This document shows positions 25,721-38,526 of a stretch of 38,526 nucleotides of DNA, in pieces. Position 1 is the first letter of the stretch; each line of letters opens with the position of its first letter. The position numbers and the translations under genes are program-made. Origin of the DNA: an uncultured Puniceicoccaceae bacterium (GTDB lineage Bacteria; Verrucomicrobiota; Verrucomicrobiia; Opitutales; Coraliomargaritaceae); NCBI GenBank assembly GCA_905479975.1, contig CAJQOS010000111.1, forward strand, positions 1 through 38,526, written 5' to 3'. The notes below the pieces were generated by a model. That model was not told the DNA's origin and searched no databases. It saw nothing but the letters and a program-made list of their open reading frames with translations.

Positions 25721-26959
25721 CTACTCGCCCGACATCTTCGCCTCAACGACGACTTTCACACCTTCTTGGCGAAGATTCACCTGAAAGGCTTCGTCGATCT
25801 GATCGAGCGGGAATTTGTGCGTGACCAGCGAAGAGACTGGCAGTCCGATACGCTCGGCACGCTGCAAGAAGTGATAGGCGCTTGGATACTCAAAGCTATT
25901 GTAAACCCAACTGCCGACTAGAGAAATCTCCTTGGCACATATATCACGGTGTGGGTTGATCGCGCATTCACCACCATCGACAAAGTGGCCAACTTCACAG
26001 ATACCTCCGCCACGACGGATGAGCTTGTAAAGGTTGGCGTGAGCCACAGGCACGCCTGTCACTTGGAAGCCCCAGTGTGCTCCGAGTCCCTTGGTCAGGC
26101 TCTGCACCTTCTCGGCGATCTCATCGATACCGGAATATTCTTTGTAATTGATCAGCTCATCTGCACCGAGACGACGAGCCATTTCTAGGCGGCTCGGGTT
26201 GCCGTCGAGTGCTATAATGTTATTCACGCCTGCAGTGCGCAACACGGCGATCATGAGCAGGCCAATCGGGCCACAACCTTGCACGACGACGCGTGAGCGG
26301 AAGTTCAGGCGATTGTTACCACAGCTACGGGCACGCTCGAGCGCGTGGCACACCACGGCCGCCGGCTCGATCAAGCAACGCAGCTCGACGCTCATATCAT
26401 TCACGACGAAGAACGATGAGCCTGGGCGGATGATCATATACTCGGCGAAATAACCATTTAAGTGATCATTTGGCTCATCCGGTAATAAACCATACACCTT
26501 GAGTTCGTCACTGAGGTTTGCCTTTGCTGGATTGTATTTAGCGACCAAGCAATTCGGCGAGGTCTCCATGAGGCTGGTGACTAGTTTGTCGCCGACCTTC
26601 ACAGCCTTGCCAACGCTGTCCATTTTCACGTTTTCGCCAACCTGCACCACTTCGCCCGTGCCTTCGTGACCGAGGACGTTTGGAGTGAGGGCGAACGGAT
26701 CGGACTTGTAGCAGTGCACATCGGTGCCACAGACGCCACAAGCTTCGACCTTGAGGAGAATTTCGTCGGGACCGATCTCACGGATCGGAAATTCTTTGAT
26801 CTCAAGCTTACGCGGCTCGACCAATACGGCGGCGCGCGCCGTCTTACCGACGGGAGCGGTGCCAGTCGGTTGAGCTGCGGGCTGAGGCGTGGCGGCAGCA
26901 GATGCACCTGCGATGACCTCGCTGACGATGCGGCTGATATCTTCTTCACTGATACTCAT
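25721..26959 (-). CDS. zinc-dependent alcohol dehydrogenase with N-terminal encapsulation peptide
   Basis: A 412-residue medium-chain dehydrogenase, last gene of the BMC operon. Residues 1-19 (MSISEEDISRIVSEVIAGA) are an amphipathic helix like that on the aldehyde dehydrogenase here, followed by an Ala/Pro/Gln/Thr linker to about residue 40; this is the layout of BMC encapsulation peptides. The catalytic zinc region is ACGVCGTDVH with GHEGTGEV, and the NAD-binding loop is GCGPIGLL. The four-Cys structural zinc loop common in this superfamily is not visible. The probable role is lactaldehyde reduction to 1,2-propanediol, recycling NADH inside the shell. Substrate and direction are inferred from context. 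A hairpin with T-run precedes the gene. Confidence 0.88.
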   Translation of the reverse strand: MSISEEDISRIVSEVIAGASAAATPQPAAQPTGTAPVGKTARAAVLVEPRKLEIKEFPIREIGPDEILLKVEACGVCGTDVHCYKSDPFALTPNVLGHEGTGEVVQVGENVKMDSVGKAVKVGDKLVTSLMETSPNCLVAKYNPAKANLSDELKVYGLLPDEPNDHLNGYFAEYMIIRPGSSFFVVNDMSVELRCLIEPAAVVCHALERARSCGNNRLNFRSRVVVQGCGPIGLLMIAVLRTAGVNNIIALDGNPSRLEMARRLGADELINYKEYSGIDEIAEKVQSLTKGLGAHWGFQVTGVPVAHANLYKLIRRGGGICEVGHFVDGGECAINPHRDICAKEISLVGSWVYNSFEYPSAYHFLQRAERIGLPVSSLVTHKFPLDQIDEAFQVNLRQEGVKVVVEAKMSGE

Positions 26960-27013
26960 ATAAAATTGATTTTTTCTGATTGTTAAAGAGGACTCGATTA
27001 GTCAGTAGCAGAA

Positions 27014-27046
27014 ACAAAATCAGGCGCCCGATTAAAGACGCCTGAT
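27014..27046 (-). terminator. internal terminator/attenuator between mdh and the alcohol dehydrogenase gene
   Basis: ATCAGGCG (27019-27026) pairs with CGCCTGAT (27039-27046). The minus-strand continuation after the stem is T-rich (TTTTGTTT). It lies in the 109-bp gap after mdh and could partly stop transcription before the alcohol dehydrogenase gene. Confidence 0.65.
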
Positions 27047-27068
27047 GATTTAAAAAGCATACGCTCGA

Positions 27069-28064
27069 TTAGATGCTCAAGCCGAGTTGACCGAAGGCCA
27101 TCTCACGCTCGTCGAGCAATTCTTGATTCGAAGCAGCGATCTTCTCTTTCGCGTAATCTGTCAGGCTGATACCTTCGACGACGCGCCATTTACCAACAGC
27201 GTCCACCTTGATTGGTAGCGATGTAATGATGCCAGCCGGTGTGCCGTATTCTCCACTGGAGATCACACAAACACTATGGAAGTCACCACGAGTTGGCGTG
27301 CTAAGATCACGAACGGTATCGACGATCGCATTGGCAGCGGAAGCCGCAGAAGACGCACCACGTGCAGCAATGATTGCCGCACCGCGTGTGCCAACTTCTG
27401 GCACGAAGGTGTTTTTCAACCATGCTTCGTCGGTAATCACGTCAGTTGCTTTATTACGGCCGATCTTGGTGTTGTAGAAGTCAGGAAACATTGTCGGGCT
27501 ATGATTCCCCCAGATGCACAGTTCGGAGACTTCAGCAACTGGCACGCCAGCTTTTTGAGCGAGTTGAGTCTTCGCACGATTCTCGTCGAGACGAGTCATG
27601 GCGAAGAACTGCTCATCAGGAATGCTTGGAGCACTCTTCATGGCGATCAGGCAATTCGTGTTACACGGGTTACCGACGACAACAACGCGCACACTTGGCT
27701 TTGCGTTGTCGTTGATCGCTTTGCCTTGGCCAACGAAGACCTTACCGTTGATACCGAGCAAGTCAGCACGCTCCATACCTTTTTTACGAGGCACGGAACC
27801 GACGAGCAATGCCCAGTCGATGTCCTTAAAGCCAACGCTCAAATCCGAAGTCTGAACGATTTCAGTGAGCAGCGGGAAAGCGCAGTCATCAAGCTCCATA
27901 GCGACACCCTTAAGGGCGCCCATACCAGGCTCGATTTCTACGAGGTTCAAAGCAACCGGTTGGTCTGGGCCAAACATGGCACCCGACGCAATGCGGAATA
28001 GAAGTGCATAACCAATGTTACCAGCTGCTCCAGTAACTGCGACGCGAATAGGATCTTTTTTCAT
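27069..28064 (-). CDS. mdh: malate dehydrogenase family protein in the BMC operon
   Basis: A 331-residue NAD-dependent 2-hydroxyacid dehydrogenase of the LDH/MDH superfamily. TGAAGNIG (11-18) binds NAD, with an acidic Glu43 that favours NAD over NADP. Arg93 and Arg99 in [13 protein letters not shown] match the malate-type substrate loop; lactate dehydrogenases have Gln at the specificity position. [11 protein letters not shown] carries the catalytic His. No encapsulation helix is seen at either end, so it probably acts in the cytoplasm. By sequence it interconverts malate and oxaloacetate; its place in a lactaldehyde operon leaves open activity on lactate. It starts 29 bp after the aldolase gene. 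Confidence 0.9.
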
Positions 28065-28093
28065 AGGTAGTATATGTCTTTGGTTGAAAAAAA

Positions 28094-29176
28094 TTATTTC
28101 ATTTTGTCCAAGATCATATCAGTGATCTTCTGGACAAGTGCTTCGTCAACATCGCCTGTTGGGAGGTCGCAACCACAAGCTTCAGCGCTGGGCTGTGGCT
28201 TCGTGTGCACTGTGTAAGCAGCGGCGTCGCAGAGTTCACACTCCTTGAGTTCGTCGAGGCGGTGATCCGGCATGCCGAGCTTTTGGCGAATTTCGATAAG
28301 TTCCTTGAGCTTGTCTGGACCGTATTGCTTTGGACCACCGATTTGCATGGTGATCGTTACAGTGTGGCAGAATGCATCCGTGTTTTCCATCTTCCAGTAA
28401 GCGTCTTCGACGTCCTTACCCCAGCAGATCACACCGTGATTTTGCATCAGGATGGATTGGTGCTTCTTAGCAAGCTTAGCAACTTCACTCGCGTTCTCAG
28501 GAGAACCTGGAGTCTGGTAGCTAGCGAAACCGATTTCACCGAGGAAGACTTCTGGCTCAGGGATGAGGCAAGAAGGAGGTGTGACACCGGCAACGGCAAA
28601 GGCGGTTGCGTAAATTGGGTGAGCATGCACGCAAGACTTCGCATTTGGCTCATTCTTCATAATCGCCAAGTGAGTGTTCACTTCAGATGTGCGAGGACGT
28701 GTGCCTGCGACTTGGTTACCATCGAGATCTACCATGCAGATATCGTCAGGAGTCATGAAGCCTTTAGAGATGAGTGTCGGTGTGCAAAGCACGAGGTTGT
28801 CACCCACGCGGACAGTGATGTTACCACCGTTGCCATCGACATAACCTTTGTTCCAGATACGCTCACCGATTCCACAGATGCGCTCTTTGAGTGCCTGAAC
28901 CTCAGGAGAGTAGAAAAATGCTTCGAGCTCTGCGGCTGTCTTTGGGTCAGCGCCAGGAGTCCAATCAAATACTGCGTTTGGCAATACTGGGCTGTGGATA
29001 CGTGGGCTGCTACCACTCGCGGCAGGAGCTGCAGCTGCAACTGGTGCGGACTTCTTATGCTTACGTAGGATGTCGCGTGCCATCGGCGTGAGCTTTGCAT
29101 TTGAGGGAACGGTCGACAGGCATTGGCCTTGCGCGATCATTGCTTCGAGATCTTTCGCTGTGTATAGTTTGCTCAT
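28094..29176 (-). CDS. BMC class II aldolase (fuculose/rhamnulose-1-phosphate type)
   Basis: A 360-residue aldolase. The core (about 90-300) is an AraD/FucA-type class II aldolase: [10 protein letters not shown], the zinc HxH in [12 protein letters not shown], Glu in [10 protein letters not shown] and a third His in [11 protein letters not shown]. It should split rhamnulose- or fuculose-1-phosphate into DHAP and L-lactaldehyde. The extra N-terminus ([11 protein letters not shown], then [14 protein letters not shown]) resembles helices fused to BMC proteins such as EutQ, followed by an Ala/Pro linker. The C-terminus has four cysteines (ECELC and ACGCD) and ends in an amphipathic helix, [16 protein letters not shown], a likely encapsulation peptide. 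This gene is diagnostic for PVM-type BMC loci. Confidence 0.92.
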
Positions 29177-29215
29177 AATATTTTGTCTTTAGTTTTTTAA
29201 AAAAGTAACTGGGAT

Positions 29216-29233
29216 CGGCGACTTTAGTCGCCG
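29216..29233 (-). promoter_or_regulatory. intercistronic hairpin between BMC-P and aldolase genes
   Basis: CGGCGAC (29216-29222) pairs with GTCGCCG (29227-29233) around a 4-nt loop in the 108-bp gap after the shell genes. The T-run on the minus strand is ~11 nt from the stem, so termination is doubtful; it may act in mRNA processing or stability. Confidence 0.35.
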
Positions 29234-29284
29234 CATTGGCAGGGAAAATGGGAGGCAGCTGAAGCAGCCGGTCCTTGATTTAAA

Positions 29285-29584
29285 TTATTCTGTCGGTGGT
29301 GTGTATTGATAGGAATCAAGCAGTGCGACGGTGATCGCATCTAATGGGATCGGGCGGTCAAACGGCTGCATCGCTTCGGCTCCTTCGACGTAGAGAACGG
29401 CGTCCCCTACTCCAGCTCCGAGATCGTCATAGGCAACGAGTGACCATGCACTGGAAACATCAGTCGTATTCTTCCCTGTCAACTCGTCAGCTCCCATCGG
29501 AGAGATGACCACCCAACGTCCACCGCGAAATGCGGGATCGCGAACGCCGAGCGTGACAGTTCCAATTACTTTTCCTGGTTTCAT
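29285..29584 (-). CDS. BMC-P (EutN/CcmL) pentameric shell vertex protein, copy 3
   Basis: A 99-residue EutN/CcmL-fold protein. It starts with KVIGTVTLGVRDPAFRGGRW, has VAYDDLGAGVGDAVLYVEG in place of the family's VAxDxxGAGxGExVLxxxG, and ends with PLDAITVALLDSY. Pentamers of such proteins cap the vertices of the icosahedral shell. It carries a longer middle loop than the canonical copy at 31357. It starts 3 bp after the stop codon of the preceding BMC-P gene, so the two are translationally close. Three different BMC-P paralogues occur in this operon. Confidence 0.9.
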   Translation of the reverse strand: MKPGKVIGTVTLGVRDPAFRGGRWVVISPMGADELTGKNTTDVSSAWSLVAYDDLGAGVGDAVLYVEGAEAMQPFDRPIPLDAITVALLDSYQYTPPTE

Positions 29585-29587
29585 GAA

Positions 29588-29842
29588 TTAATCAACGATC
29601 CCCATTATTTGGTTACGAATCGGCGAATGATTATCGTGCACGGTGCCTTGTGTCCAAGAACCGTCCGTTGTAATAAACACTCGCGCATGAATGCCTGCGC
29701 CCATTGGATCGATGGCCGCAAACGGTGCGCCCGCGTCCGCGCCAGTCTCATCGATCGGAGTGCAAAGCACTATTGTCCGACCTGTGAGACTGGGATGACC
29801 GAAGCTGGTTACAGCATGGCCGTCTACGCGTGCGAGGATCAT
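29588..29842 (-). CDS. BMC-P (EutN/CcmL) pentameric shell vertex protein, copy 2
   Basis: An 84-residue, short EutN/CcmL-type protein. MILARVDGHAVTSFGHPSLTG and GRTIVLCTPID correspond to the first two strands of the fold; FAAIDPMGAGIHARVFITTDG matches the conserved GAGxG region with the second Gly and Glu altered; the end PIRNQIMGIVD fits the final strand. It lies between the aldehyde dehydrogenase gene (47 bp away) and the next BMC-P gene (3 bp). It is shorter and more divergent than the other two copies, but the fold signature is clear. Confidence 0.87.
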   Translation of the reverse strand: MILARVDGHAVTSFGHPSLTGRTIVLCTPIDETGADAGAPFAAIDPMGAGIHARVFITTDGSWTQGTVHDNHSPIRNQIMGIVD

Positions 29843-29889
29843 TTACTCAGAATTAGGAATTAATAATTAGGAATGAGGAATCCCTAGAA

Positions 29890-31332
29890 CTATCGAACGA
29901 TGTTCAGGTTATTCACCAAGGTGCAACGGCGGTAACGTGTGAAGGTGCGTGGCGTTGTAATGCCCTCACCTGTTGTGGTTGCGATGGAGAAGCTGATAAA
30001 GCCTTCACCACCGAGACCTAGACCAGCCAAACAAGGGCCGTTCTTAACGAAAATCGTAGTGTCCATCGCTTGTCCCATCTCAGTCATACGTGAGACATTC
30101 ATGGTGTGGATCATCGCGGAGTGCTTATCACCGTGCTCAGATTGCTTAGCGATGCTAAGACCTTGAGCGAAGTCATTGGCACGAACGATTGGCAGCAACG
30201 GCATCATTTGTTCTTCTTGAACGAATGGATCGTTGGCATCAGTCTCAGCGATGAGCATTTCAACCTTAGTGTCGATATCCAGACCAGCGATGCGTGCGAG
30301 TGCGTCGGGGTTTGCGCCGACCCACTTACGGTTAAGAACCGGAGTGCCACAGCCTACGCCGTTCTTATAATCAAAGACTTCGTTTTTAATTGCTTCGAGC
30401 TGCTGCGCATTGAGGAGCACCGCACCTTGGCGTTGCATCGCTGCAAGCGTCTTTTGATACGAGTCACCGACTGCGATGATTTGTTTCTCACCGATGCAGA
30501 GCAAGTTGTTGTCGAAACCACCACCAGCGATGATGTCGCGAGCGACACGGTCGAAGTCGAGTGCATTGCAATCGTCAACCAGAACAGGAGGATTACCAGG
30601 ACCTGCGCAAATTGCGCGCTTGCCAGTCTTCATCGCAGCATCCACCACACCAGGACCGCCAGTGATGCAGAGCATATTGACGTCGTCATGCGTGCAGAGT
30701 GCATTGAAGGAGTCGATGGAAGGCTTCTCAATCGTGCAGAGCAGATTAGAGATACCAGTTTCGGCTTTAATCGCTTCGTTGAACTCGTTAATTGCGAGTG
30801 CAGCGACGGCGGCACCACCTGGATGCGGATTAAAGACGATCGAGTTACCGGCAGCGACCATGTTGACGATGTTACCAGCGATGGTCGGCACAGAGTGCGT
30901 CAGCGGAGTCACACCAACGATGACGCCCCAAGGAGCGGCTTCGTCCATTGTGATACCGAAATCACCACTCATGCCTTGCGGCGTGAGGTATTCTGGTCCG
31001 AGCACATTTTGCACACCCTGAAGTTTCGCAGGTTTGTGCGCAAGGCGACCGATCTTGGTTTCGTTAAACTCGATCTGCCCCCAACGCTCAGCGTTAGCGA
31101 CACACATTTTCTTAACGAGATCGACGATCTGTTTGCGAGCGGCCCAGCCTTTTTTCTGGAGCTGCTCAAAACCACCACGTGCTGCTGCCACGGCTTGATC
31201 GGCGTCGTCAAAGACACCGTGCTTACCGGGACGAGTTTGGATGGTCGGCATCGATAGCCCACCGTTGGATTGCATCTGCGCGAGCACTTCACTCACTACA
31301 TTACGAATCGCTGCTTCATTCAATTGACTCAT
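29890..31332 (-). CDS. CoA-acylating aldehyde dehydrogenase (PduP-like) with encapsulation peptide
   Basis: A 480-residue enzyme that oxidises an aldehyde with CoA and NAD+ to acyl-CoA. Residues 1-20 (MSQLNEAAIRNVVSEVLAQM) form an amphipathic helix followed by a flexible linker, the usual N-terminal encapsulation peptide. The catalytic Cys279 lies in FDNNLLCIGEKQ. PWGVIVGVTPLTHSVPT and FNPHPGGAAVAALAI are typical of PduP/EutE enzymes. Here the substrate is most likely L-lactaldehyde, giving lactoyl-CoA for PduL. It starts 24 bp after the BMC-P gene upstream, preceded by AAAGGA. Confidence in the family is high; the substrate is inferred. Confidence 0.95.
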   Translation of the reverse strand: MSQLNEAAIRNVVSEVLAQMQSNGGLSMPTIQTRPGKHGVFDDADQAVAAARGGFEQLQKKGWAARKQIVDLVKKMCVANAERWGQIEFNETKIGRLAHKPAKLQGVQNVLGPEYLTPQGMSGDFGITMDEAAPWGVIVGVTPLTHSVPTIAGNIVNMVAAGNSIVFNPHPGGAAVAALAINEFNEAIKAETGISNLLCTIEKPSIDSFNALCTHDDVNMLCITGGPGVVDAAMKTGKRAICAGPGNPPVLVDDCNALDFDRVARDIIAGGGFDNNLLCIGEKQIIAVGDSYQKTLAAMQRQGAVLLNAQQLEAIKNEVFDYKNGVGCGTPVLNRKWVGANPDALARIAGLDIDTKVEMLIAETDANDPFVQEEQMMPLLPIVRANDFAQGLSIAKQSEHGDKHSAMIHTMNVSRMTEMGQAMDTTIFVKNGPCLAGLGLGGEGFISFSIATTTGEGITTPRTFTRYRRCTLVNNLNIVR

Positions 31333-31356
31333 GTAAAAATCCTTTTTCCTTTAGGT

Positions 31357-31671
31357 TTAACCGTTCTTCGCTTCGTAAGTCTTGTTACCAAGAATGCTTA
31401 CGTTATCGACGAGACCGACAATGGCTGCATCTACCGGTAGTGCTTTGAGGCCATCGGCCTGACGAGCAGAACTACCTTGGGCAAACATCACGAGCTCGCC
31501 CTCTCCGGCGCCCAGCGTATCAATCGCGACAATCGTATTGCTGCCGGCTTTGAGTTTACTGGGATCTTCCGGATCGACCAACATCGGACGAACCATGAGG
31601 AGCTTACGCCCCCGCATGCTCTCGTCCTTCTTCGTCGAAACGACGGACCCTATGATTGTTCCCAGATACAT
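31357..31671 (-). CDS. BMC-P (EutN/CcmL) pentameric shell vertex protein, copy 1
   Basis: A 104-residue canonical EutN/CcmL protein: MYLGTIIGSVVSTKKDESMR, GRKLLMVRPM, then VAIDTLGAGEGELVMFAQGS, SSARQ and PVDAAIVGLVD. These match the family closely, including the GAGxGE loop that lines the pentamer pore. It begins 5 bp after the stop of the BMC-H gene at 31677, so the two shell genes are tightly coupled. It is the most typical of the three paralogues. Confidence 0.95.
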   Translation of the reverse strand: MYLGTIIGSVVSTKKDESMRGRKLLMVRPMLVDPEDPSKLKAGSNTIVAIDTLGAGEGELVMFAQGSSARQADGLKALPVDAAIVGLVDNVSILGNKTYEAKNG

Positions 31672-31676
31672 CGGAT

Positions 31677-31982
31677 TTACTTAGTTGCGCGCTTAGCGGA
31701 AGCTTTAAGAGCAGGAACGATTGTTTCTACATCTTCGTGCGGACGAGCGATTGTGTGTGCGCTCACAACTTCGCCATAACGGCCAGCTGTTTCTGCACCA
31801 GTTTCGATCGCAGCATTAACTGCAGCAACGTCACCTGTGATTACTACACTTACAAGAGCACTGCCGACACCCTTCATAGGGCCGGTAAGTTCGACGTTTG
31901 CTGATTTGAGCATTGCGTCTGTGCCTTGGACAAGAGCGACAAGGCCCTTAGTTTCGAGAATTCCGATTGCTTGTTTTGCCAT
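31677..31982 (-). CDS. BMC-H hexameric shell protein, copy 3 (C-terminally extended)
   Basis: A 101-residue single BMC domain protein that should form hexameric shell tiles. It has AIGILETKGLVALVQGTDAM at the start, VVSVxxxGDV-type strand VSVVITGDVAAVNAAIETGA, and the ARPHEDV end motif. The pore loop region reads MKGVGSALV, unlike the KIGSGLV and SIGGGFL of the other two copies, so pore chemistry should differ. About 16 extra residues rich in Ala and Lys follow the BMC domain. It is separated from the other two BMC-H genes by ackA. Confidence 0.95.
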   Translation of the reverse strand: MAKQAIGILETKGLVALVQGTDAMLKSANVELTGPMKGVGSALVSVVITGDVAAVNAAIETGAETAGRYGEVVSAHTIARPHEDVETIVPALKASAKRATK

Positions 31983-32031
31983 GATATTATGTGGGTTGAT
32001 TTGAATTAATTATTACTTGTTTAGAAATTTG

Positions 32032-33216
32032 TTAGCTTGCCTCGATGTTGCGAACGACTTCGCGAGCGATGACGAGCTCTTCGTTTGCCGGGATGACGAC
32101 CACCTTGATAGTGGAGTCGTCGGCACTGATGACACCTTCCGCACCACGAATGACTTTCGCGTTACGCTCGGCGTCGATTTTCACGCCAAGACCTTCGAGG
32201 CCGGCGCAAACTGCTGCACGCAGTTCGGGATCATTTTCTCCCATACCTGCGGTAAATGAGATCACTTCGGCTCCGCCCATCTTGAAGAAGAACGAACCTG
32301 CCCAGTGACGAATGCTGTCGATGAGGACATCGATAGCGAGTTGAGCATCCTTATTGCCAGCGGCAGCGGCTTCGCCGATATCGCGTGCATCGTTACTCAC
32401 CTTTGAGAGACCCAGAAGACCACTCTCTTTGTTGAGCTGACGTTCAGCTTCCTCGACGGAAAGCCCGAGCATCTTACTCACATAAGGAATCGCCATGGAG
32501 TCGAGATCACCAACGCGGTTGTTTTGCGGTAAACCGCTTTGCGGGCTGAAGCCCATACTCGAACCGATTGCGACACCATTGTTGATGCCAACTACGGAAC
32601 TACTACCACCGAGGTGGCAAGAGATCACTCGAACTGGATCACCTGTGTATTCGCCTGGCCCATCGACATAGAGACGACGTGCACGTTCGGCCACGACATC
32701 ATTACCAACCATCTCAGCAGAGCGTTCGGCAATGAATTTGTGACTCGCACCGTGAAAGCCATAACGACGAATCCCCAAATCACGCCAAGCTTGTGGGATG
32801 GCGTAAGTGGTGAATGCCTCGTCTGCCCACTGGAAGAACGCAGTCTCGAAAAGAGCGACACGTTTTACAGAGGGAAGCTTTTCAGCGAAGCAGCGAATAC
32901 CTTCAGAGTAGGCCGGATTGTGTGCGGGAGCGACCTCCTTGAAGCCATCAAGAGCTTCAAGGACGCGCTCATCCGCAGTTACACAACCACTGAGATCCTT
33001 ACCGAGGACGGTTTTAAAACCGACCGCGTCCAGATCTTGACCGGATTGAAGATGCCCGTCGCCAACCAGAGTTTCGAGCATTTGCTCAATACACGGGGTG
33101 TATTCAGTGACGCGCTCAAAGCCTCCATCAGCCAACAGGGTGGCGACAGTATCGCTCATCTCAAAAAGACGATACTTGAAGGAGGTGGAACCAAGGTTGG
33201 CGATTAGGATCTTCAT
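32032..33216 (-). CDS. ackA: acetate kinase family protein, divergent BMC type
   Basis: A 394-residue ASKHA-fold kinase that transfers phosphate from an acyl phosphate to ADP. NLGSTSFKYRLFE (7-19), YGFHGASHK (152-160), SCHLGGSSSV (199-208) and NRVGDLD with Arg234 mark the family. However, the stretch that reads HRVVHGG in typical acetate kinases reads FKTVLGK here (67-73), and the APLHNP motif reads APAHNP (Ala98). Both lie in the acyl-binding site of known enzymes. In a locus making lactaldehyde, lactoyl-phosphate is a likely substrate, giving lactate plus ATP; this is inference. No encapsulation peptide is visible. The gene lies between shell genes, with a hairpin in its leader. Confidence 0.9.
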   Translation of the reverse strand: MKILIANLGSTSFKYRLFEMSDTVATLLADGGFERVTEYTPCIEQMLETLVGDGHLQSGQDLDAVGFKTVLGKDLSGCVTADERVLEALDGFKEVAPAHNPAYSEGIRCFAEKLPSVKRVALFETAFFQWADEAFTTYAIPQAWRDLGIRRYGFHGASHKFIAERSAEMVGNDVVAERARRLYVDGPGEYTGDPVRVISCHLGGSSSVVGINNGVAIGSSMGFSPQSGLPQNNRVGDLDSMAIPYVSKMLGLSVEEAERQLNKESGLLGLSKVSNDARDIGEAAAAGNKDAQLAIDVLIDSIRHWAGSFFFKMGGAEVISFTAGMGENDPELRAAVCAGLEGLGVKIDAERNAKVIRGAEGVISADDSTIKVVVIPANEELVIAREVVRNIEAS

Positions 33217-33234
33217 TAGAAAAATGTTAAGCTG

Positions 33235-33279
33235 TTTTCGGTTGACCAGTTCTCAGTAATAAAACTGAAAACCGGAAAA
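33235..33279 (-). promoter_or_regulatory. leader hairpin between BMC-H and ackA genes
   Basis: TTTTCGGTT (33235-33243) pairs with AACCGGAAAA (33270-33279) with one bulge, and CAGTT (33247-33251) with AACTG (33263-33267) inside it. It lies in the 83-bp gap after abundant shell-protein genes and before ackA. It may act in mRNA processing or set the lower expression of the enzyme. Confidence 0.4.
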
Positions 33280-33299
33280 CCAATCACTGAAAAACTGTG

Positions 33300-33578
33300 T
33301 TAGCCAATCCAGCTACCGAGTTTCGAAAGGTCGTCATGTGGACGAGGGATCACCTGAACGGCAACCACTTCACCCATTGAACCTGCAGCGTCGGCACCTG
33401 CTTCAACCGCAGCTTTAACAGCAGCGACATCGCCAGAGAAGAAAGCAGTCACGAGACCACTTCCGATTTTTTCCCAGCCAGTCAATGTAACGTCAGCTGA
33501 TTTTAGTGCGGCATCGGATGCTTCCATGAGGCATACGAACCCCTTGCACTCGATCATTCCTATTGCTTGTTTAGCCAT
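33300..33578 (-). CDS. BMC-H hexameric shell protein, copy 2
   Basis: A 92-residue single BMC domain protein. It starts AIGMIECKGFVCLMEASDAA, has the pore-loop region EKIGSGLVTAFFSGDVAAVK and the IPRPHDDL end motif of canonical BMC-H. Cys11 and Cys16 near the start are unusual next to the other copies. It lies 21 bp after BMC-H copy 1, with AAAGGGA before its ATG as ribosome-binding site. The two adjacent genes probably give the bulk of the shell. Confidence 0.96.
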   Translation of the reverse strand: MAKQAIGMIECKGFVCLMEASDAALKSADVTLTGWEKIGSGLVTAFFSGDVAAVKAAVEAGADAAGSMGEVVAVQVIPRPHDDLSKLGSWIG

Positions 33579-33599
33579 AATATTTGTTTCCCTTTAGGG

Positions 33600-33869
33600 T
33601 TATGCTTGAAAGTATTTAAGCAGGTCGTCGTGTGGACGTGCGATAACGTGCGATGCAACCAATTCGCCTGCGCGATTTGCTGCTTCAGCACCAGCTTCGA
33701 CGGCTGCTTTGACGCTGCCGACATCACCTTTGACGAGAACGGTCAAAAAGCCGCCGCCAATGGAGATTTGTTTTACAAGGCTAATGTTAGCTGCCTTAGC
33801 CATAGCGTCACTAGCTTCGATTGAGCCAGTGAGCCCTTTTGTTTCTACCAATCCGATGGATTCACTCAT
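33600..33869 (-). CDS. BMC-H hexameric shell protein, copy 1
   Basis: An 89-residue single BMC domain protein: SIGLVETKGLTGSIEASDAM at the start, pore region QISIGGGFLTVLVKGDVGSV, and VIARPHDDL near the end. It is the second gene of the operon, 44 bp after pduL. The pore loop SIGGG differs from the other two copies. Canonical length and fold; hexamer formation follows from the family. Confidence 0.96.
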   Translation of the reverse strand: MSESIGLVETKGLTGSIEASDAMAKAANISLVKQISIGGGFLTVLVKGDVGSVKAAVEAGAEAANRAGELVASHVIARPHDDLLKYFQA

Positions 33870-33913
33870 GATATATTTTGGTTTGTGGTTATGTGTGTTG
33901 AAATGAGAGTTAT

Positions 33914-34588
33914 TTATTTGATGAGCTCACAAGGAGTGTCATCACCGAAGCCGCAAGCGTTGCCTTCGTCTGTGTCGATGTGGACTTCCAATTTAAAAGA
34001 AGGATCCACACGAACGAAGAGATTATCGAAGGTGACACCAATGTCGCCTCCCACGCGGAGCTTCATGTAAGATTTATTTTCGACGCCGTAATGCGCTGCA
34101 TCATCTGGATGCATATGAACGTGCGGTGCAGCGCGAATCACGCCCTGTTCCATCTTGAGGAAGCCGGCAGGCCCCATCAGCATGCAACCGGGTGTGCCTT
34201 CGATATCGCCGGAGTTACGAATTGGAATCTTAAAGCCAAGCGAGATCGCATCTGTATAAGCGAGCTCGACCTGATCGAAATCACGGCAAGGACCGAGAAT
34301 ACGCAGGTTCGAAATGACGCGACTGCGCGGGCCGATCATAGTGACCGATTCCTTCGCAGCATATTGACCGTCCATGTATAGATCCTTCATCGGCGTGAGC
34401 TGGTGCCCCTTGCCGAAAAGAACCTCAACAGAGGCCTGAGAAAGGTGACAGTGGCGTGCACTGATATTAACGACCAAAGGATTCGGGCCACCGGCAGGCT
34501 TCAATGCGCCACTCGCAACAGGATTACGCTGGAGACTGGTGCGAACCATCTGCTCGACCTGTGCACGATTTAAAAGTTGATTACTCAT
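33914..34588 (-). CDS. pduL: PduL-type phosphotransacylase
   Basis: A 224-residue phosphate acyltransferase of the PduL family, unrelated to Pta. It swaps CoA for phosphate on the acyl group made by the aldehyde dehydrogenase and frees CoA inside the shell. The zinc ligands lie in SARHCHLS and HVHMHPDD. MIGPRSRVISNLRILGP and GCMLMGPAGF are typical of the family. The N-terminal ~22 residues (NQLLNRAQVEQMVRTSLQRN) form an amphipathic helix that fits an encapsulation peptide, followed by a Gly/Ala/Pro linker. The start is ATG 34586-34588; the open frame upstream to 34768 overlaps the divergent regulator and is rejected. It is first gene of the BMC operon. Confidence 0.95.
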   Translation of the reverse strand: MSNQLLNRAQVEQMVRTSLQRNPVASGALKPAGGPNPLVVNISARHCHLSQASVEVLFGKGHQLTPMKDLYMDGQYAAKESVTMIGPRSRVISNLRILGPCRDFDQVELAYTDAISLGFKIPIRNSGDIEGTPGCMLMGPAGFLKMEQGVIRAAPHVHMHPDDAAHYGVENKSYMKLRVGGDIGVTFDNLFVRVDPSFKLEVHIDTDEGNACGFGDDTPCELIK

Positions 34589-34703
34589 ATTGAAGTGATT
34601 GGAGAAATGTTGGAATTCCTGTAAAATCCAAATAAACCAACATAAGTCAACATATATCTTGCAAAAACAAAGAAATACCCAAATAAACACACTCACACAC
34701 GTC
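34589..34703. promoter_or_regulatory. divergent promoter/operator region between pduL and the deoR-family gene
   Basis: This 115-bp AT-rich gap has CAACAT at 34638-34643 and again at 34648-34653, exactly 10 bp apart (one helical turn), and the inverted form ATGTTG at 34607-34612. TTGACT on the minus strand (34645-34650) could be the -35 box of the BMC operon and overlaps the second CAACAT. These are good candidates for binding sites of the DeoR-family protein, which would control both directions. No clear -10 box was found. Confidence 0.5.
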
Positions 34704-35465
34704 ATGCTCGCCCAAGAACGCCACCAACAGATCCTGCAACTCCTTGAAGAACAAGGAACTGTCCGCACCGTAGACCTTGCGGAGCAATTTCAATGCACCG
34801 ACGAGACGATTCGGCGCGATCTACAGATACTGTCGGACAACAATCAGCTCGCCCGTGTGCACGGTGGAGCCAGCAGCCTGAACGGCCGCCCCCTACTACA
34901 GTCCTTTACAGAGCGCCGCGCACAGAACGTCGAGCACAAGCAAGCGATCGCAAGAGCAGCCCTAGAGCTAATCACCCCCGGGCGGACATACGCTTTCGAT
35001 AGTAGCACCACAGCCTTTGAGCTGGTATCCGCGCTACCTGACCTGCCCTACCGCGTCGTGACGAATGCCTTTGCCGTGATGGAGCACATTGCCCGCATGG
35101 GCAGCGTGGAGCTCATCTCAACCGGAGGTCGCTACCACCCAAAGACGCAGACATTCACTCGCAGCGACAGTTACGTCACACTGCAGCGCCACAACATCAA
35201 CATCGCCTTCATCTCCTGCATCGGCCTGGACACGCTCCGTGGCGCCAGCGAAGGCTTCGAAGAACAGGCCGGATTCAAAGAAGTGCTCGTGCAATTTGCC
35301 CAAGAGGTCGTGCTGATGGTCGATTCGAGCAAATTAAACACCTGCTCCGAGTATTTTTTCGCAGAACTTAAAGACCTAACCCACATTATCACTGATAGCG
35401 ATGCCTCCCCCGAATGCGTCGAAGCGCTCAGAGCTCAAGGCTGCAAAGTGACACTCGCCCAATAA
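34704..35465 (+). CDS. DeoR-family transcriptional regulator of the BMC locus
   Basis: A 253-residue regulator. An N-terminal winged HTH (about 5-57, with RHQQILQLLEEQGTV and CTDETIRRDLQIL, RVHGGAS) is the DeoR signature; the DeoRC sugar-phosphate sensor domain (about 75-235) follows. DeoR proteins usually repress sugar genes until a sugar phosphate binds, so rhamnulose- or fuculose-phosphate or DHAP is the likely effector; this is inference. ATG 34704 is chosen because the family begins with this MLAQERHQQIL-type start; the frame is open from 34599. It is first gene of the deoR-rhaB-mqo unit and divergent from the BMC operon. Confidence 0.93.
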   Translation: MLAQERHQQILQLLEEQGTVRTVDLAEQFQCTDETIRRDLQILSDNNQLARVHGGASSLNGRPLLQSFTERRAQNVEHKQAIARAALELITPGRTYAFDSSTTAFELVSALPDLPYRVVTNAFAVMEHIARMGSVELISTGGRYHPKTQTFTRSDSYVTLQRHNINIAFISCIGLDTLRGASEGFEEQAGFKEVLVQFAQEVVLMVDSSKLNTCSEYFFAELKDLTHIITDSDASPECVEALRAQGCKVTLAQ

Positions 35466-35488
35466 CACCCACTCACAACTACCCAACC

Positions 35489-36964
35489 ATGAGTCAAAAT
35501 AAAGTATATCTCGCAGTCGACCTCGGCGCCGGCAGTGGTCGAGTCCTCGCCGGAGAATTCGACGGCAACCGCATCGAACTCCACGAGCTCAATCGCTTCG
35601 ATAACATTGGACTCCAACTTCCCACTGGAGTGCATTGTAATATTACACAGCTTTACCAAAACATTCTTGAGGGTCTTAGAATCGCGGCTGACACGTATGG
35701 TGATTCCGTTGTCAGCATCGGCATCGACACATGGGGCGTGGACTATGGCCTGTTCGACAAAGACGGTCGCCTGCTGGGTCTTCCCTACAACTACCGCGAC
35801 AGCCGCACCGACGGCATGATGGAAAAAGCCTTTGAGAAAGTCTCAAAAGAAGAGATCTACAACAAGACAGGTGTGCCGTCCCTGTTCTTCAACTCACTCT
35901 ACCAGCTTCTCTCAGAAGTTGAAAGCAGAAGCCCCGCACTCGAAAGCGCAGAGGACATGCTCTTCATCCCCGACATGCTGGGATATTGGCTGACGGGCAA
36001 GAAGACACAGGAACGTAGCTTTGCCAGCACCACCCAGCTGTATAACCCCACGACAAAAGATTGGGACTTCGAGCTCATCGAGACACTCGGGCTTCCCAAG
36101 CGCCTCTTTAAAAAAATCAGCGATCCCGGCACCGTGCTCGGCGAGCTACGAGACAAGGTCGCCACAAGAACAGGCCTAGAGGGCGTGAAAGTCATCACAG
36201 TTGCAGGGCATGACACAGCAAGCGCCGTCGCAGCAGTGCCGAGCCAAGCTAAGACGCCAGCCTTTCTCAGTAGCGGCACCTGGTCACTACTCGGACTAGA
36301 GCTACCGAAGCCAGTCATCAATGAGCAGTCCCTCGCAGACGGCTTTACCAACGAGATCGGCGTCAATAACACCGTCCGCTTTCTCAACAACATCTGCGGG
36401 CTCTGGCTCATCCAAGAAACCAAGCGTTACTGGCGCGCTGGCGGCGAAGATGTCCCCTACAGCAAAATGGCAGGCTTCGCAGCCGAAGCCACGCCCTTCC
36501 GCAGCCTGATCAACCCGGACGACAAGCGCTTCATTGAGGCTGATCGCATGCCGGAAAAGATCCAAGCCTTCTGCCATGAAACTGGGCAACCCATCCCTGA
36601 GACAAAGGGAGAAATCATCCGCTGCATTTACGAAAGCCTCGCGCTGCGCTACGCAACAGTCTGGCAGAAGTTGATCCAATACACCGAGCACAAACCGCAG
36701 ACACTCCACATCGTAGGAGGCGGCTGCCAAGACAAACTCCTCAACCAATTTGCAGCCAATTCAATCGGCGTAAGAGTTGCAGCCTGCCCGGTTGAAGCGA
36801 CCGGCCTAGGCAACATCCTCGCGCAAATGCTGGCCGATGGTGAAATTAACAATCTCTCTGAAGGCCGCAAAATCGTCCTCAACTCTTCACTCGTCGAAAC
36901 ATTCGAACCCGAGGATCAAGTCATCTGGAGAGAGGCCAAAGCCAAATTCGCGAACATCACTTAA
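35489..36964 (+). CDS. rhaB: rhamnulokinase
   Basis: A 491-residue FGGY-family sugar kinase. AVDLGAGSGRVLAG at the start and SIGIDTWGVDYGLFD (about 78-92) are typical of RhaB; GHDTASAVAAVP carries the catalytic Asp, and FLSSGTWSLLGLE is the nucleotide-binding part. It phosphorylates L-rhamnulose to L-rhamnulose-1-phosphate, the substrate of the BMC aldolase. Related kinases act on L-fuculose, so this substrate cannot be excluded. ATG 35489 is used, 23 bp after the regulator gene; the longer frame overlaps deoR. No rhamnose isomerase or mutarotase is in the window. Confidence 0.92.
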   Translation: MSQNKVYLAVDLGAGSGRVLAGEFDGNRIELHELNRFDNIGLQLPTGVHCNITQLYQNILEGLRIAADTYGDSVVSIGIDTWGVDYGLFDKDGRLLGLPYNYRDSRTDGMMEKAFEKVSKEEIYNKTGVPSLFFNSLYQLLSEVESRSPALESAEDMLFIPDMLGYWLTGKKTQERSFASTTQLYNPTTKDWDFELIETLGLPKRLFKKISDPGTVLGELRDKVATRTGLEGVKVITVAGHDTASAVAAVPSQAKTPAFLSSGTWSLLGLELPKPVINEQSLADGFTNEIGVNNTVRFLNNICGLWLIQETKRYWRAGGEDVPYSKMAGFAAEATPFRSLINPDDKRFIEADRMPEKIQAFCHETGQPIPETKGEIIRCIYESLALRYATVWQKLIQYTEHKPQTLHIVGGGCQDKLLNQFAANSIGVRVAACPVEATGLGNILAQMLADGEINNLSEGRKIVLNSSLVETFEPEDQVIWREAKAKFANIT

Positions 36965-36989
36965 CTTTAAGTGAAAAATTAATAAGTAA

Positions 36990-38492
36990 ATGAAAAGCGA
37001 AATACACATTGAAAATCCTGACGTCATCTTAATCGGAAGCGGGATCATGTCTGCCACACTCGGAGCCGTTCTGAAAGAGATGGATCCGAGCCTACGTATT
37101 CAACTCTACGAAGTCACCGATGGGCTCGCCTGCGAGGCATCCAACGGCTGGCACAATGCAGGCACTGGGCACGCTGGACTCTGCGAACTGAGCTACACGC
37201 CCGACTACGGCGCCGACGGCGAAGTCGATGTCAGTAAGGCCATCGAGATCTTCCACCAGTTCGAGCACTCGCTACAATTCTGGGGCCACGCCGTGCGCAC
37301 TGGTATGATTAAAGATCCAAAGGATTTCGTCAACCCAGTGCCACACCTAAGCTTCGTCTATGGACAGGAACAAGTCGACTTCCTGCGCTCACGTCACCGC
37401 CAGCTCACCAAGCACCACTTCTTCAAGGAAATGGAATACACGGAAGACCGTGACACTATCCGCAAATGGTCACCACTCATCCTGGAAGGCCGCGACAACG
37501 AACCAGTCGCAATGACACGCATGCCGCACGGCACTGACGTCAACTTCGGCGCACTAGCAGATGGGCTAATCCAATGGCTTGGCAAACAAGAAGGCTGTGG
37601 ATTTGCGACACAAAGCCGCGTCACCGACCTCACCAAATGCGGCGAAAAATGGGAAGTTAAAGTAAAAAACCTTCAAACAAAACAGACAATCACCAACACC
37701 GCGGAGTTCGTCTTCATTGGTGGCGGTGGGGGCAGCCTTCCACTACTTCAAAAATCAGGTATTGCCGAAGCAAAAGGCTTCGGCGGATTCCCGATCGGAG
37801 GCCAATGGTTGATCTCCGAGAAGCCAGAACTCGTAAACCAACACACGGCAAAAGTCTACGGCATGTCCCCCGGAGCGGCACCAACAATGGCAGTCCCACA
37901 TCTGGACACCCGCATCATCGACGGCAAGAAGGCACTGCTCTTTGGACCCTACGCATCATGGACTACTAAATTCCTACATGAGAAAGGTAGCGCATTTGAT
38001 CTTCCAGGTTCCATTCGCCTAGATAACATCGGGTCATTGATCAAGGTCGGCTTGCACAACATTCCACTCGTCCGCTACCTAGTTCAGCAAGGCACTCAGA
38101 GCATGGAGACGCGCCTAGGCGAATTGCGCAACTTCTACCCAGACGCGAAAGCTGAAGACTGGAAACTCATTGACGCTGGCATTCGCGTCCAAGCGATTAA
38201 AAAAGAAGATGGTGACGCTGGTATCGTTCACTTTGGCACCGAAATGGTGACCAGTGCCGACCGCAGCCTCACTGCTCTCCTCGGCGCCTCGCCAGGCGCA
38301 TCAGTGTCGACTAACGTCATCGTTCAAATCGTGCAGAAGTGCTTCGCCGACAAGCTCAAGACTACTGACGGACACAGACGAATGAAAGCAGTCATCCCAA
38401 CATTCGACGAGGATCTCACCCTAGCAAACATGGCTGAACGTCAGAAAACGGTCAGCGACGAAGCGATGCAATCCTTACGCATACTATCCTAA
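36990..38492 (+). CDS. mqo: malate:quinone oxidoreductase family protein (possibly lactate:quinone)
   Basis: A 500-residue FAD enzyme of the Mqo family, peripheral to the membrane, passing electrons from a 2-hydroxyacid to quinone. DVILIGSGIMSATLG (about 11-25) is the FAD-binding loop, NGWHNAGTGHAGLCELSYT is a family hallmark, and GASPGASVSTNV lies near the C-terminus. It starts 25 bp after rhaB and so belongs to the sugar operon rather than to a TCA cluster. The family includes a lactate:quinone oxidoreductase in Staphylococcus aureus. Because the BMC pathway ends in lactate, lactate is a real candidate substrate here. Family certain, substrate open. Confidence 0.92.
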   Translation: MKSEIHIENPDVILIGSGIMSATLGAVLKEMDPSLRIQLYEVTDGLACEASNGWHNAGTGHAGLCELSYTPDYGADGEVDVSKAIEIFHQFEHSLQFWGHAVRTGMIKDPKDFVNPVPHLSFVYGQEQVDFLRSRHRQLTKHHFFKEMEYTEDRDTIRKWSPLILEGRDNEPVAMTRMPHGTDVNFGALADGLIQWLGKQEGCGFATQSRVTDLTKCGEKWEVKVKNLQTKQTITNTAEFVFIGGGGGSLPLLQKSGIAEAKGFGGFPIGGQWLISEKPELVNQHTAKVYGMSPGAAPTMAVPHLDTRIIDGKKALLFGPYASWTTKFLHEKGSAFDLPGSIRLDNIGSLIKVGLHNIPLVRYLVQQGTQSMETRLGELRNFYPDAKAEDWKLIDAGIRVQAIKKEDGDAGIVHFGTEMVTSADRSLTALLGASPGASVSTNVIVQIVQKCFADKLKTTDGHRRMKAVIPTFDEDLTLANMAERQKTVSDEAMQSLRILS

Positions 38493-38526
38493 AAGCTCAA
38501 ATTACTCCCCGATGCCGCTCTACATA

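Follow-up and report, generated by a model that had tools for sequence, protein, structure and literature searches.

The window analysed here (38,526 nucleotides, the entire contig C111 of an assembly of 2.85 Mb in 117 contigs from an uncultured Puniceicoccaceae bacterium) carries a bacterial microcompartment (BMC) locus that probably encodes a metabolosome of the Planctomycetes/Verrucomicrobia (PVM) type for L-rhamnose and/or L-fucose, with the entry and exit steps of the pathway encoded across one control region. Its shell operon faces a divergent deoR-rhaB-mqo arm, whose last gene encodes a relative of malate:quinone oxidoreductase (Mqo). More tentatively, and with slightly less than even confidence, we propose that this Mqo-like protein represents a novel type of L-lactate:quinone oxidoreductase that differs from LldD, LutABC and the enzyme of staphylococci and serves methylpentose breakdown in Verrucomicrobiota, and that the deoR-rhaB region is a socket at which the shell organelle and the cytosolic enzyme RhaEW, a fused aldolase/lactaldehyde dehydrogenase, have been exchanged more than once, each with a lactate burner.

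The first-pass annotation of this DNA had described 12 minus-strand genes facing deoR-rhaB-mqo, and family matches and coordinates confirmed all 15 genes in that order, with 115 bp (34589–34703) between the two operons. The shell operon runs pduL, BMC-H, BMC-H, ackA, BMC-H, BMC-P, aldehyde dehydrogenase (AldDH), BMC-P, BMC-P, aldolase, mdh and zinc alcohol dehydrogenase (ADH), an order that is not due to chance, since relatives keep it. The locus contains the PVM signature enzyme, a class II aldolase (PF00596, 153.5 bits versus a cut-off of 22.2); the PVM core of AldDH, PduL and acetate kinase; three BMC-H and three BMC-P shell genes; and a DeoR regulator with a lactate/malate dehydrogenase gene, all in a genome of the Verrucomicrobiota. 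By the sequence features tested, it belongs to the PVM metabolosome type, a known kind. A profile search of the genome returned no PF00936 match beyond the locus, and we know of no PVM shell that includes BMC-T.

From the gene families we infer the following route. Isomerases encoded elsewhere in the genome (rhaA on contig C17, fucI on contig C33) would supply the ketose, which the RhaB-family kinase would convert to the ketose 1-phosphate and the class II aldolase would split into dihydroxyacetone phosphate and L-lactaldehyde. Within the shell, lactaldehyde would be converted to lactate by AldDH, PduL and AckA with a yield of ATP, and the zinc ADH, which bears a tag-like N-terminal helix, would reduce part of the lactaldehyde and so recycle NAD+. 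The final oxidation, of lactate to pyruvate, would fall to the Mqo-like protein and to LutABC, encoded on the deoR-rhaB side, and a single DeoR-bound site between the operons would control both. Erbilgin 2014 reportedly provided the original PVM characterisation. In the portions of the literature available to us, to which all citations here refer, the PVM type is described in aerobic L-fucose and L-rhamnose degradation via lactaldehyde (PMC4207490), is represented by 285 members in a catalogue from 2021 (PMC8217296) and is expressed in Verrucomicrobiota during algal blooms (PMC8857213). The PVM assignment, the lactaldehyde chemistry and the shared control region, all put forward in the first-pass annotation, are supported by the family matches, by this literature and by a site conserved ahead of deoR.

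We compared 57 genomes, including the window's own (56 relatives; genomes are designated G and individual loci L). BMC proteins occur in 31 of the 57, and we examined the shell region of each of the 30 relatives that have a shell. Of the 20 same-family shell loci on contigs that continue beyond deoR, 19 have deoR-rhaB in divergent orientation to pduL (the exception being G012); within the stretch covered, this arrangement is absent from all eight shell-bearing genomes of other families. Behind rhaB, those 19 loci carry mqo (13), lutABC (5) or a contig end (1); mqo follows rhaB directly in 11 of the 13, the window included, and forms part of a khk-DUF4432-mqo run in two (G027 and G028; khk, ketohexokinase-like gene). 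In G036, deoR-rhaB-lutABC-khk-DUF4432 is located on another contig.

RhaEW takes the place of the shell operon opposite deoR-rhaB in all seven family members that bear it (G014, G018, G019, G024, G030, G032 and G034), with a second class II aldolase behind rhaEW in six of them; in G019 the contig ends inside rhaEW. The RhaEW of G018 passes its models (1044.7 versus 634 and 944.7 versus 567.75), and G054, from another family, encodes deoR-rhaB-rhaEW-lutABC in a single run. Full-length RhaEW over the TIGR02632 cut-off was found in 10/57 genomes, none of them among the 31 with a shell, and G040 has a nearly full-length match under that cut-off; shell and RhaEW never occur together in the 57 genomes (31 versus 10, p 1.2e-4, kinship ignored). 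On a rhaB tree of 25 rows with trimmed N-termini, restricted to loci that have both genes of the deoR-rhaB pair and a rhaB at least 55 % identical, the shell/RhaEW label requires four changes, at least two of them forced by well supported branches. On an mqo tree, from which the duplicates or near-copies L284, L287, L290, L035 and L038 and 44 of the 53 rows for named generic Mqo were left out, the shell label requires six changes, at least four of them forced. That deoR-rhaB stays constant as its neighbours are exchanged suggests parts that may be interchangeable around one control site.

The candidate for that site is an operator-like, near-palindromic sequence (6/7 pairs) matching CAA[CG]ATN4CTTG. 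Of 28 regions upstream of deoR, 25 contain the pattern 45–67 bases ahead of the gene, in shell and RhaEW versions alike (it is absent from G021, G025 and G019), and it additionally precedes deoR in G036 and G034. It occurs 25 times in 1.10 million bases, both strands counted, 20 of these at deoR, and turns up in 0.1 % of shuffled 203-base regions. Throughout the gene swaps, a single palindrome-like site is retained ahead of deoR, and DeoR presumably binds it. We considered and rejected a wider DeoR regulon: five of the 25 matches in the first locus set lie away from deoR, and stretches around rhaA, fucI and other genes gave five matches, two at deoR (L276, L282) and three in weak fucI-like loci (L180, L183, L185). 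Divergent -35 boxes read by eye around the site are not found by a promoter scan and we do not claim them.

Features of the PVM locus and its divergent arm (positions in the window)
Feature	Position	Strand	Evidence
Zinc alcohol dehydrogenase, N-terminus encapsulation-peptide-like	25721-26959	-	PF08240/PF00107; N-terminal helix motif
Malate dehydrogenase, PRK05442 type, without targeting extension	27069-28064	-	NF003916 489.7 bits (cut-off 271)
Class II aldolase, PVM signature enzyme, N- and C-terminal extensions	28094-29176	-	PF00596, residues 99-272 of 360
BMC-P shell vertex protein	29285-29584	-	PF03319
BMC-P shell vertex protein	29588-29842	-	PF03319
CoA-acylating aldehyde dehydrogenase, N-terminal encapsulation-peptide-like helix	29890-31332	-	NF011927 558.3 bits (cut-off 403); motif
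BMC-P shell vertex protein	31357-31671	-	PF03319
BMC-H shell protein	31677-31982	-	PF00936
Acetate/propionate-type kinase AckA; predicted lactyl-phosphate to lactate + ATP	32032-33216	-	TIGR00016 297.3 bits (cut-off 293.4)
BMC-H shell protein	33300-33578	-	PF00936
BMC-H shell protein	33600-33869	-	PF00936
PduL phosphotransacylase, N-terminal encapsulation-peptide-like helix	33914-34588	-	PF06130; NF011652 239.7 bits (cut-off 209); motif
Operator-like site CAACATATATCTTGCA	34648-34663	.	CAA[CG]ATN4CTTG, sole match in the window
DeoR-family regulator	34704-35465	+	PF00455/PF08220
FGGY methylpentulose kinase, RhaB family	35489-36964	+	TIGR02627 500.4 bits (under cut-off 527.95)
Mqo-like quinone oxidoreductase	36990-38492	+	PF06039 651.6 bits; TIGR01320 586.7 (cut-off 549.95)

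The divergent arm appears to extend beyond the window. The last 141 bases (38386–38526) are an exact copy of the first 141 bases of contig G000:C9, and this sequence occurs at just those two places of the assembly. Contig C9 then carries lutA, lutB, lutC, khk, a DUF4432 gene and a SpoIIE-type phosphatase gene (khk and DUF4432 named from relatives), its LutB passing TIGR00273 (448.5 versus a cut-off of 444.8). Linkage of mqo and lutABC across C111 and C9 is likely, resting on the assembly overlap; and because lutABC opens the contig that shares this unique overlap, the genome probably carries both genes. A complete locus had been claimed for the window, which holds for the shell operon and not for the divergent operon, since the contig terminates 34 bases beyond mqo and C9 carries on. 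We rejected a scheme in which mqo plainly replaces lutABC without overlap, both genes being present in the window's genome.

Across the 57 genomes, the methylpentose module (shell or RhaEW) goes with a candidate gene for lactate oxidation. Mqo falls into two groups, the window's clade (24/57 genomes) and a generic Mqo (7/57; about 50 % identical to the clade where compared, in G010 and G013), with both in G027; the split was made on bit scores, and sequence confirms all 24 clade members and, of the seven generic ones, G010 and G013. Full-length LutB was found in 14 genomes (nine over the curated cut-off of 444.8, five at 429–442.7 bits) and full-length FMN_dh, the LldD type, in two. At least one of these (clade mqo, LutB or full-length FMN_dh) is present in 37/41 genomes with the module versus 2/16 without it (Fisher p 4e-8), including 28/28 module genomes that are at least 90 % complete, the window's own among them; the four module genomes without any of these genes (G009, G012, G049 and G052) are all less than 90 % complete. 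The link also appears for each exit singly (clade mqo, 23/41 against 1/16, p 7e-4; LutB/FMN_dh, 15/41 against 1/16, p 0.024), and the two coincide in 1/41 module genomes, the window's own (p 1e-6). Generic mqo, by comparison, has no association with the module (6/41 versus 1/16, p 0.66). On the rhaB tree, well supported branches force at least three switches of the mqo label and at least four of the lutABC label, and sister pairs differ in their exit: G016 (lutABC) and G027 (mqo), G020 (lutABC) and G028 (mqo), and the window (both) and G010 (lutABC).

Several observations weigh against the reading set out above. The Fisher tests ignore kinship, and G053, one of the 28, is counted only via a family-level FMN_dh match. 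The mqo and lutABC labels are clustered on the rhaB tree no more than shuffled labels (198 and 500 of 500 shuffles as low), a scatter that fits frequent exchange and shows no inheritance, and the window's genome probably combines both exits; lutABC-bearing genomes tend to be larger, and genome size may contribute to the pattern. A named locus outside the 57 genomes, L296, carries both shell genes and RhaEW. A search for a second operator in the window's own genome found none (14 matches at up to three mismatches versus 14 for a reversed-pattern control), and the promoter scan gave one weak site (34600–34627; 0.4 expected) and none around the operator. RhaB lies under the cut-off of its own model (TIGR02627). 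As for the Mqo-like protein, TIGR01320, which it passes, names it malate dehydrogenase (quinone), it stays below the cut-off of NF040844 (500.5 versus 915), the clade retains each of the 11 basic residues that are conserved in generic Mqo (48/48 rows; K404, 47/48), and 15 of 26 named clade loci lack methylpentose genes in the stretch covered, among the matches listed, several stretches being short.

These last points bear on the first of two rival explanations that we regard as possible, if on balance doubtful: that the protein is a true malate:quinone oxidoreductase, either forming with mdh a malate/oxaloacetate cycle that passes metabolosome NADH to quinones, or being a tricarboxylic acid cycle gene parked at the locus. 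An mdh-mqo couple exists in Corynebacterium, and a malate-type mdh lies inside the shell operon. Within module genomes, moreover, generic mqo goes with LutB/FMN_dh (5/6 versus 10/35, p 0.018), so that these genomes may simply need one Mqo. Against this, the exchange partner of mqo is lutABC and not malate genes, as far as seen; clade mqo sits in RhaEW operons without mdh in the stretch covered (G019, G024, G030, G032, L301 and L302); and G027 combines clade mqo in the operon with a generic mqo at another place in the genome. Because of the swaps, the link to the module and the conserved site in relatives, the Mqo-like protein is plausibly an L-lactate:quinone oxidoreductase, a role favoured by gene context. 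For the earlier proposal that mqo oxidises lactate, the support is thus one of gene context; the family match says malate, and the established LutABC appears to lie after mqo on the next contig. NF040844 models an L-lactate:quinone oxidoreductase from Staphylococcus, likewise an Mqo-family protein with a lactate role, but the window's protein scores higher with malate models.

Two approaches to the substrate were abandoned. The ratio of lactate to best malate model score (0.79 for the window's protein, 0.75 for the generic Mqo of G010) decides nothing, and inference of the pocket from lost basic residues fails, as the window's protein has lost none. Substitutions N68S, P299T, S301A and Q398I mark the clade relative to 55 generic rows and 9dm1 (48 clade rows compared, three of them duplicates; L324, at 48 % identity, and the short L307 and L310 left out). 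Searching named genomes with an alignment of the clade yielded at least 80 loci; among the matches listed, 27 fit the window's clade best, 26 without L324; three of the 26 (L284, L287 and L290) look like genomes already among the 57. Among these listed matches, four have shell genes, seven have RhaEW (one has both), a further one, L291, has rhaA adjoining mqo, and lutABC is seen in 0/26 within the stretch covered. Clade mqo adjoins a uracil phosphoribosyltransferase gene in L293 and G037 and a ferrochelatase gene in L297, and L304 groups with generic Mqo on the mqo tree. The clade is found mostly in Verrucomicrobiota, and the loci with other neighbours or without methylpentose genes, which also suit a true Mqo, imply that as a whole it is not dedicated to the methylpentose pathway.

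The second rival, to which we would give about a third of our belief, is that the locus serves L-fucose rather than L-rhamnose, with rhaB functioning either as a fuculokinase or as a kinase that accepts both ketoses. Five relatives of 90 % completeness or more (G014, G016, G018, G019 and G025) have a strong FucI match and no RhaA match and keep this deoR-rhaB, and fucI follows mqo in G002, G018 and G019, with fucU in the first two. Conversely, the RhaB-family score far exceeds the FucK score (500.4 versus 155.7 bits), the window's genome has RhaA too, and G001, G008 and G013 have RhaA without a strong FucI match (G001 and G008 being incomplete). As rhaA and fucI both lie on other contigs, the sugar may be rhamnose, fucose or both, and a reading of the locus as one for rhamnose is too narrow, given the FucI-only relatives and the two isomerases of the genome itself. 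In L034, L189 and L191, fucI follows mqo on the same strand (fucU too in L034 and L189) in relatives without a rhaA match, which points to fucose rather than rhamnose there.

We consider it unlikely that the shell has mdh as its core redox partner, reducing lactaldehyde to recycle NAD+ or acting as L-lactate dehydrogenase: the former is predicted for PVM according to Axen et al. 2014 (PMC4207490), the latter is how PMC11596606 reads the gene at its organism's locus, and mdh lies inside the operon in all same-family shell loci reaching that far, but the protein has no encapsulation-peptide-like helix and keeps a malate-type specificity loop like that of another copy, encoded on contig C110. In G014, G016, G018 and G025 (at least 96 % complete), PF02866 finds no Ldh_1-family gene besides mdh, which must therefore do general work there, G014 and G018 having no shell.

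An N-terminal helix motif does mark the zinc ADH, AldDH and PduL, and these helices may act as targeting tags. In the loci compared, the motif falls within the first 25 residues of 44/506 open reading frames (ORFs) of at least 200 aa (26 AldDH, 10 PduL, 6 zinc ADH and 2 others); it was written after seeing the three proteins, and the 506-ORF count used a slightly different motif chosen after seeing DHDPS tails. The zinc ADH occurs in 8/57 genomes at E 1e-60 or better (in two pieces in G012), plus a fragment in G023, all shell-bearing, and no model over its cut-off names a substrate. It is likely an optional enzyme for luminal NAD+ recycling (lactaldehyde to 1,2-propanediol). The 1,2-propanediol production suggested earlier fits the tagged enzyme and extends only to the 9/31 shell-bearing genomes with the gene, one a fragment and one in two pieces.

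A two-domain BMC-T lies on another contig in six shell-bearing relatives (L063 in G049, L064 in G021, L065 in G028, L066 in G056, L067 in G027 and L068 in G048). It adjoins a DHDPS-family aldolase in five of them (tested with Pfam in L063 and L064, by similarity in the other three), L068 fitting in part, and the aldolase C-terminus is an encapsulation-peptide-like helix in 5/5 cases and in 0/506 background ORFs, with a motif chosen afterwards. Other neighbours are amidohydrolase (L065, L067), short-chain dehydrogenase/reductase and enolase-family dehydratase (L067) and altronate dehydratase (L064) genes; the one neighbour tested in each of L063 and L066 is not a sugar gene. These loci read as a putative non-phosphorylating route for deoxysugars that would supply the PVM shell with lactaldehyde and pyruvate.

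Within the locus, the window's AldDH is 98 % identical to that of G016, from a different genus, and only 91–95 % identical to those of its own genus, and its rhaB is 90 % identical to that of G010, 84–86 % to G016 and G027 and 75–76 % to the remaining genus members, patterns that suggest recombination. The aldolase has about 95 additional N-terminal residues containing a motif whose core is kept even in distant loci. A gene for a 23S rRNA-intervening-sequence-type protein separates aldolase and mdh in L037 (15553–15927; Pfam-tested there only), and similar ORFs occur in L038, L040 and L053.

The locus shares with the PVM metabolosome of Planctomyces limnophilus and Lentimonas the class II aldolase, AldDH, PduL, AckA, DeoR, an Ldh/Mdh-family gene and BMC-P and BMC-H, but the tagged zinc ADH and the divergent rhaB-mqo(-lutABC) arm are not named for PVM in the portions available. 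The loci of PMC8857213 likewise have equal numbers of BMC-H and BMC-P. The GRM5 fucose/rhamnose microcompartment (PMC4207490) has a homologous class II aldolase, DeoR and a zinc-type alcohol dehydrogenase as predicted core enzyme, but uses a glycyl radical enzyme and an anaerobic propanediol route, neither of which is present in the window's locus. Parts of the exit are already in print: Chthoniobacteraceae SH-KS-3 combines a rhamnulokinase-lutABC operon with a metabolosome (PMC11596606), tying lactate oxidation to rhamnulokinase in a shell-bearing verrucomicrobium, and RhaEW regulons under RhaR include lldD/lldEFG, taking rhamnose to pyruvate via a co-regulated lactate dehydrogenase (PMC3870299). 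The available portion of the former mentions no mqo and no RhaEW swap, and that of the latter, which concerns other phyla, describes no shell and no Mqo-like enzyme. Among titles and abstract starts of the open-licence literature, we saw neither a description of a lactate-related Mqo-like enzyme from PVM loci nor one of an exchange between shell and RhaEW.

Whether a shell benefits the breakdown of these sugars compared with the cytosolic route is posed as an open question in PMC8857213, and close relatives with the same regulator, kinase and lactate exit that differ in shell versus RhaEW offer a natural paired comparison. If an enzyme that annotation models label malate:quinone oxidoreductase does have a lactate role, metabolic reconstructions of algal-polysaccharide degraders would have to be corrected.

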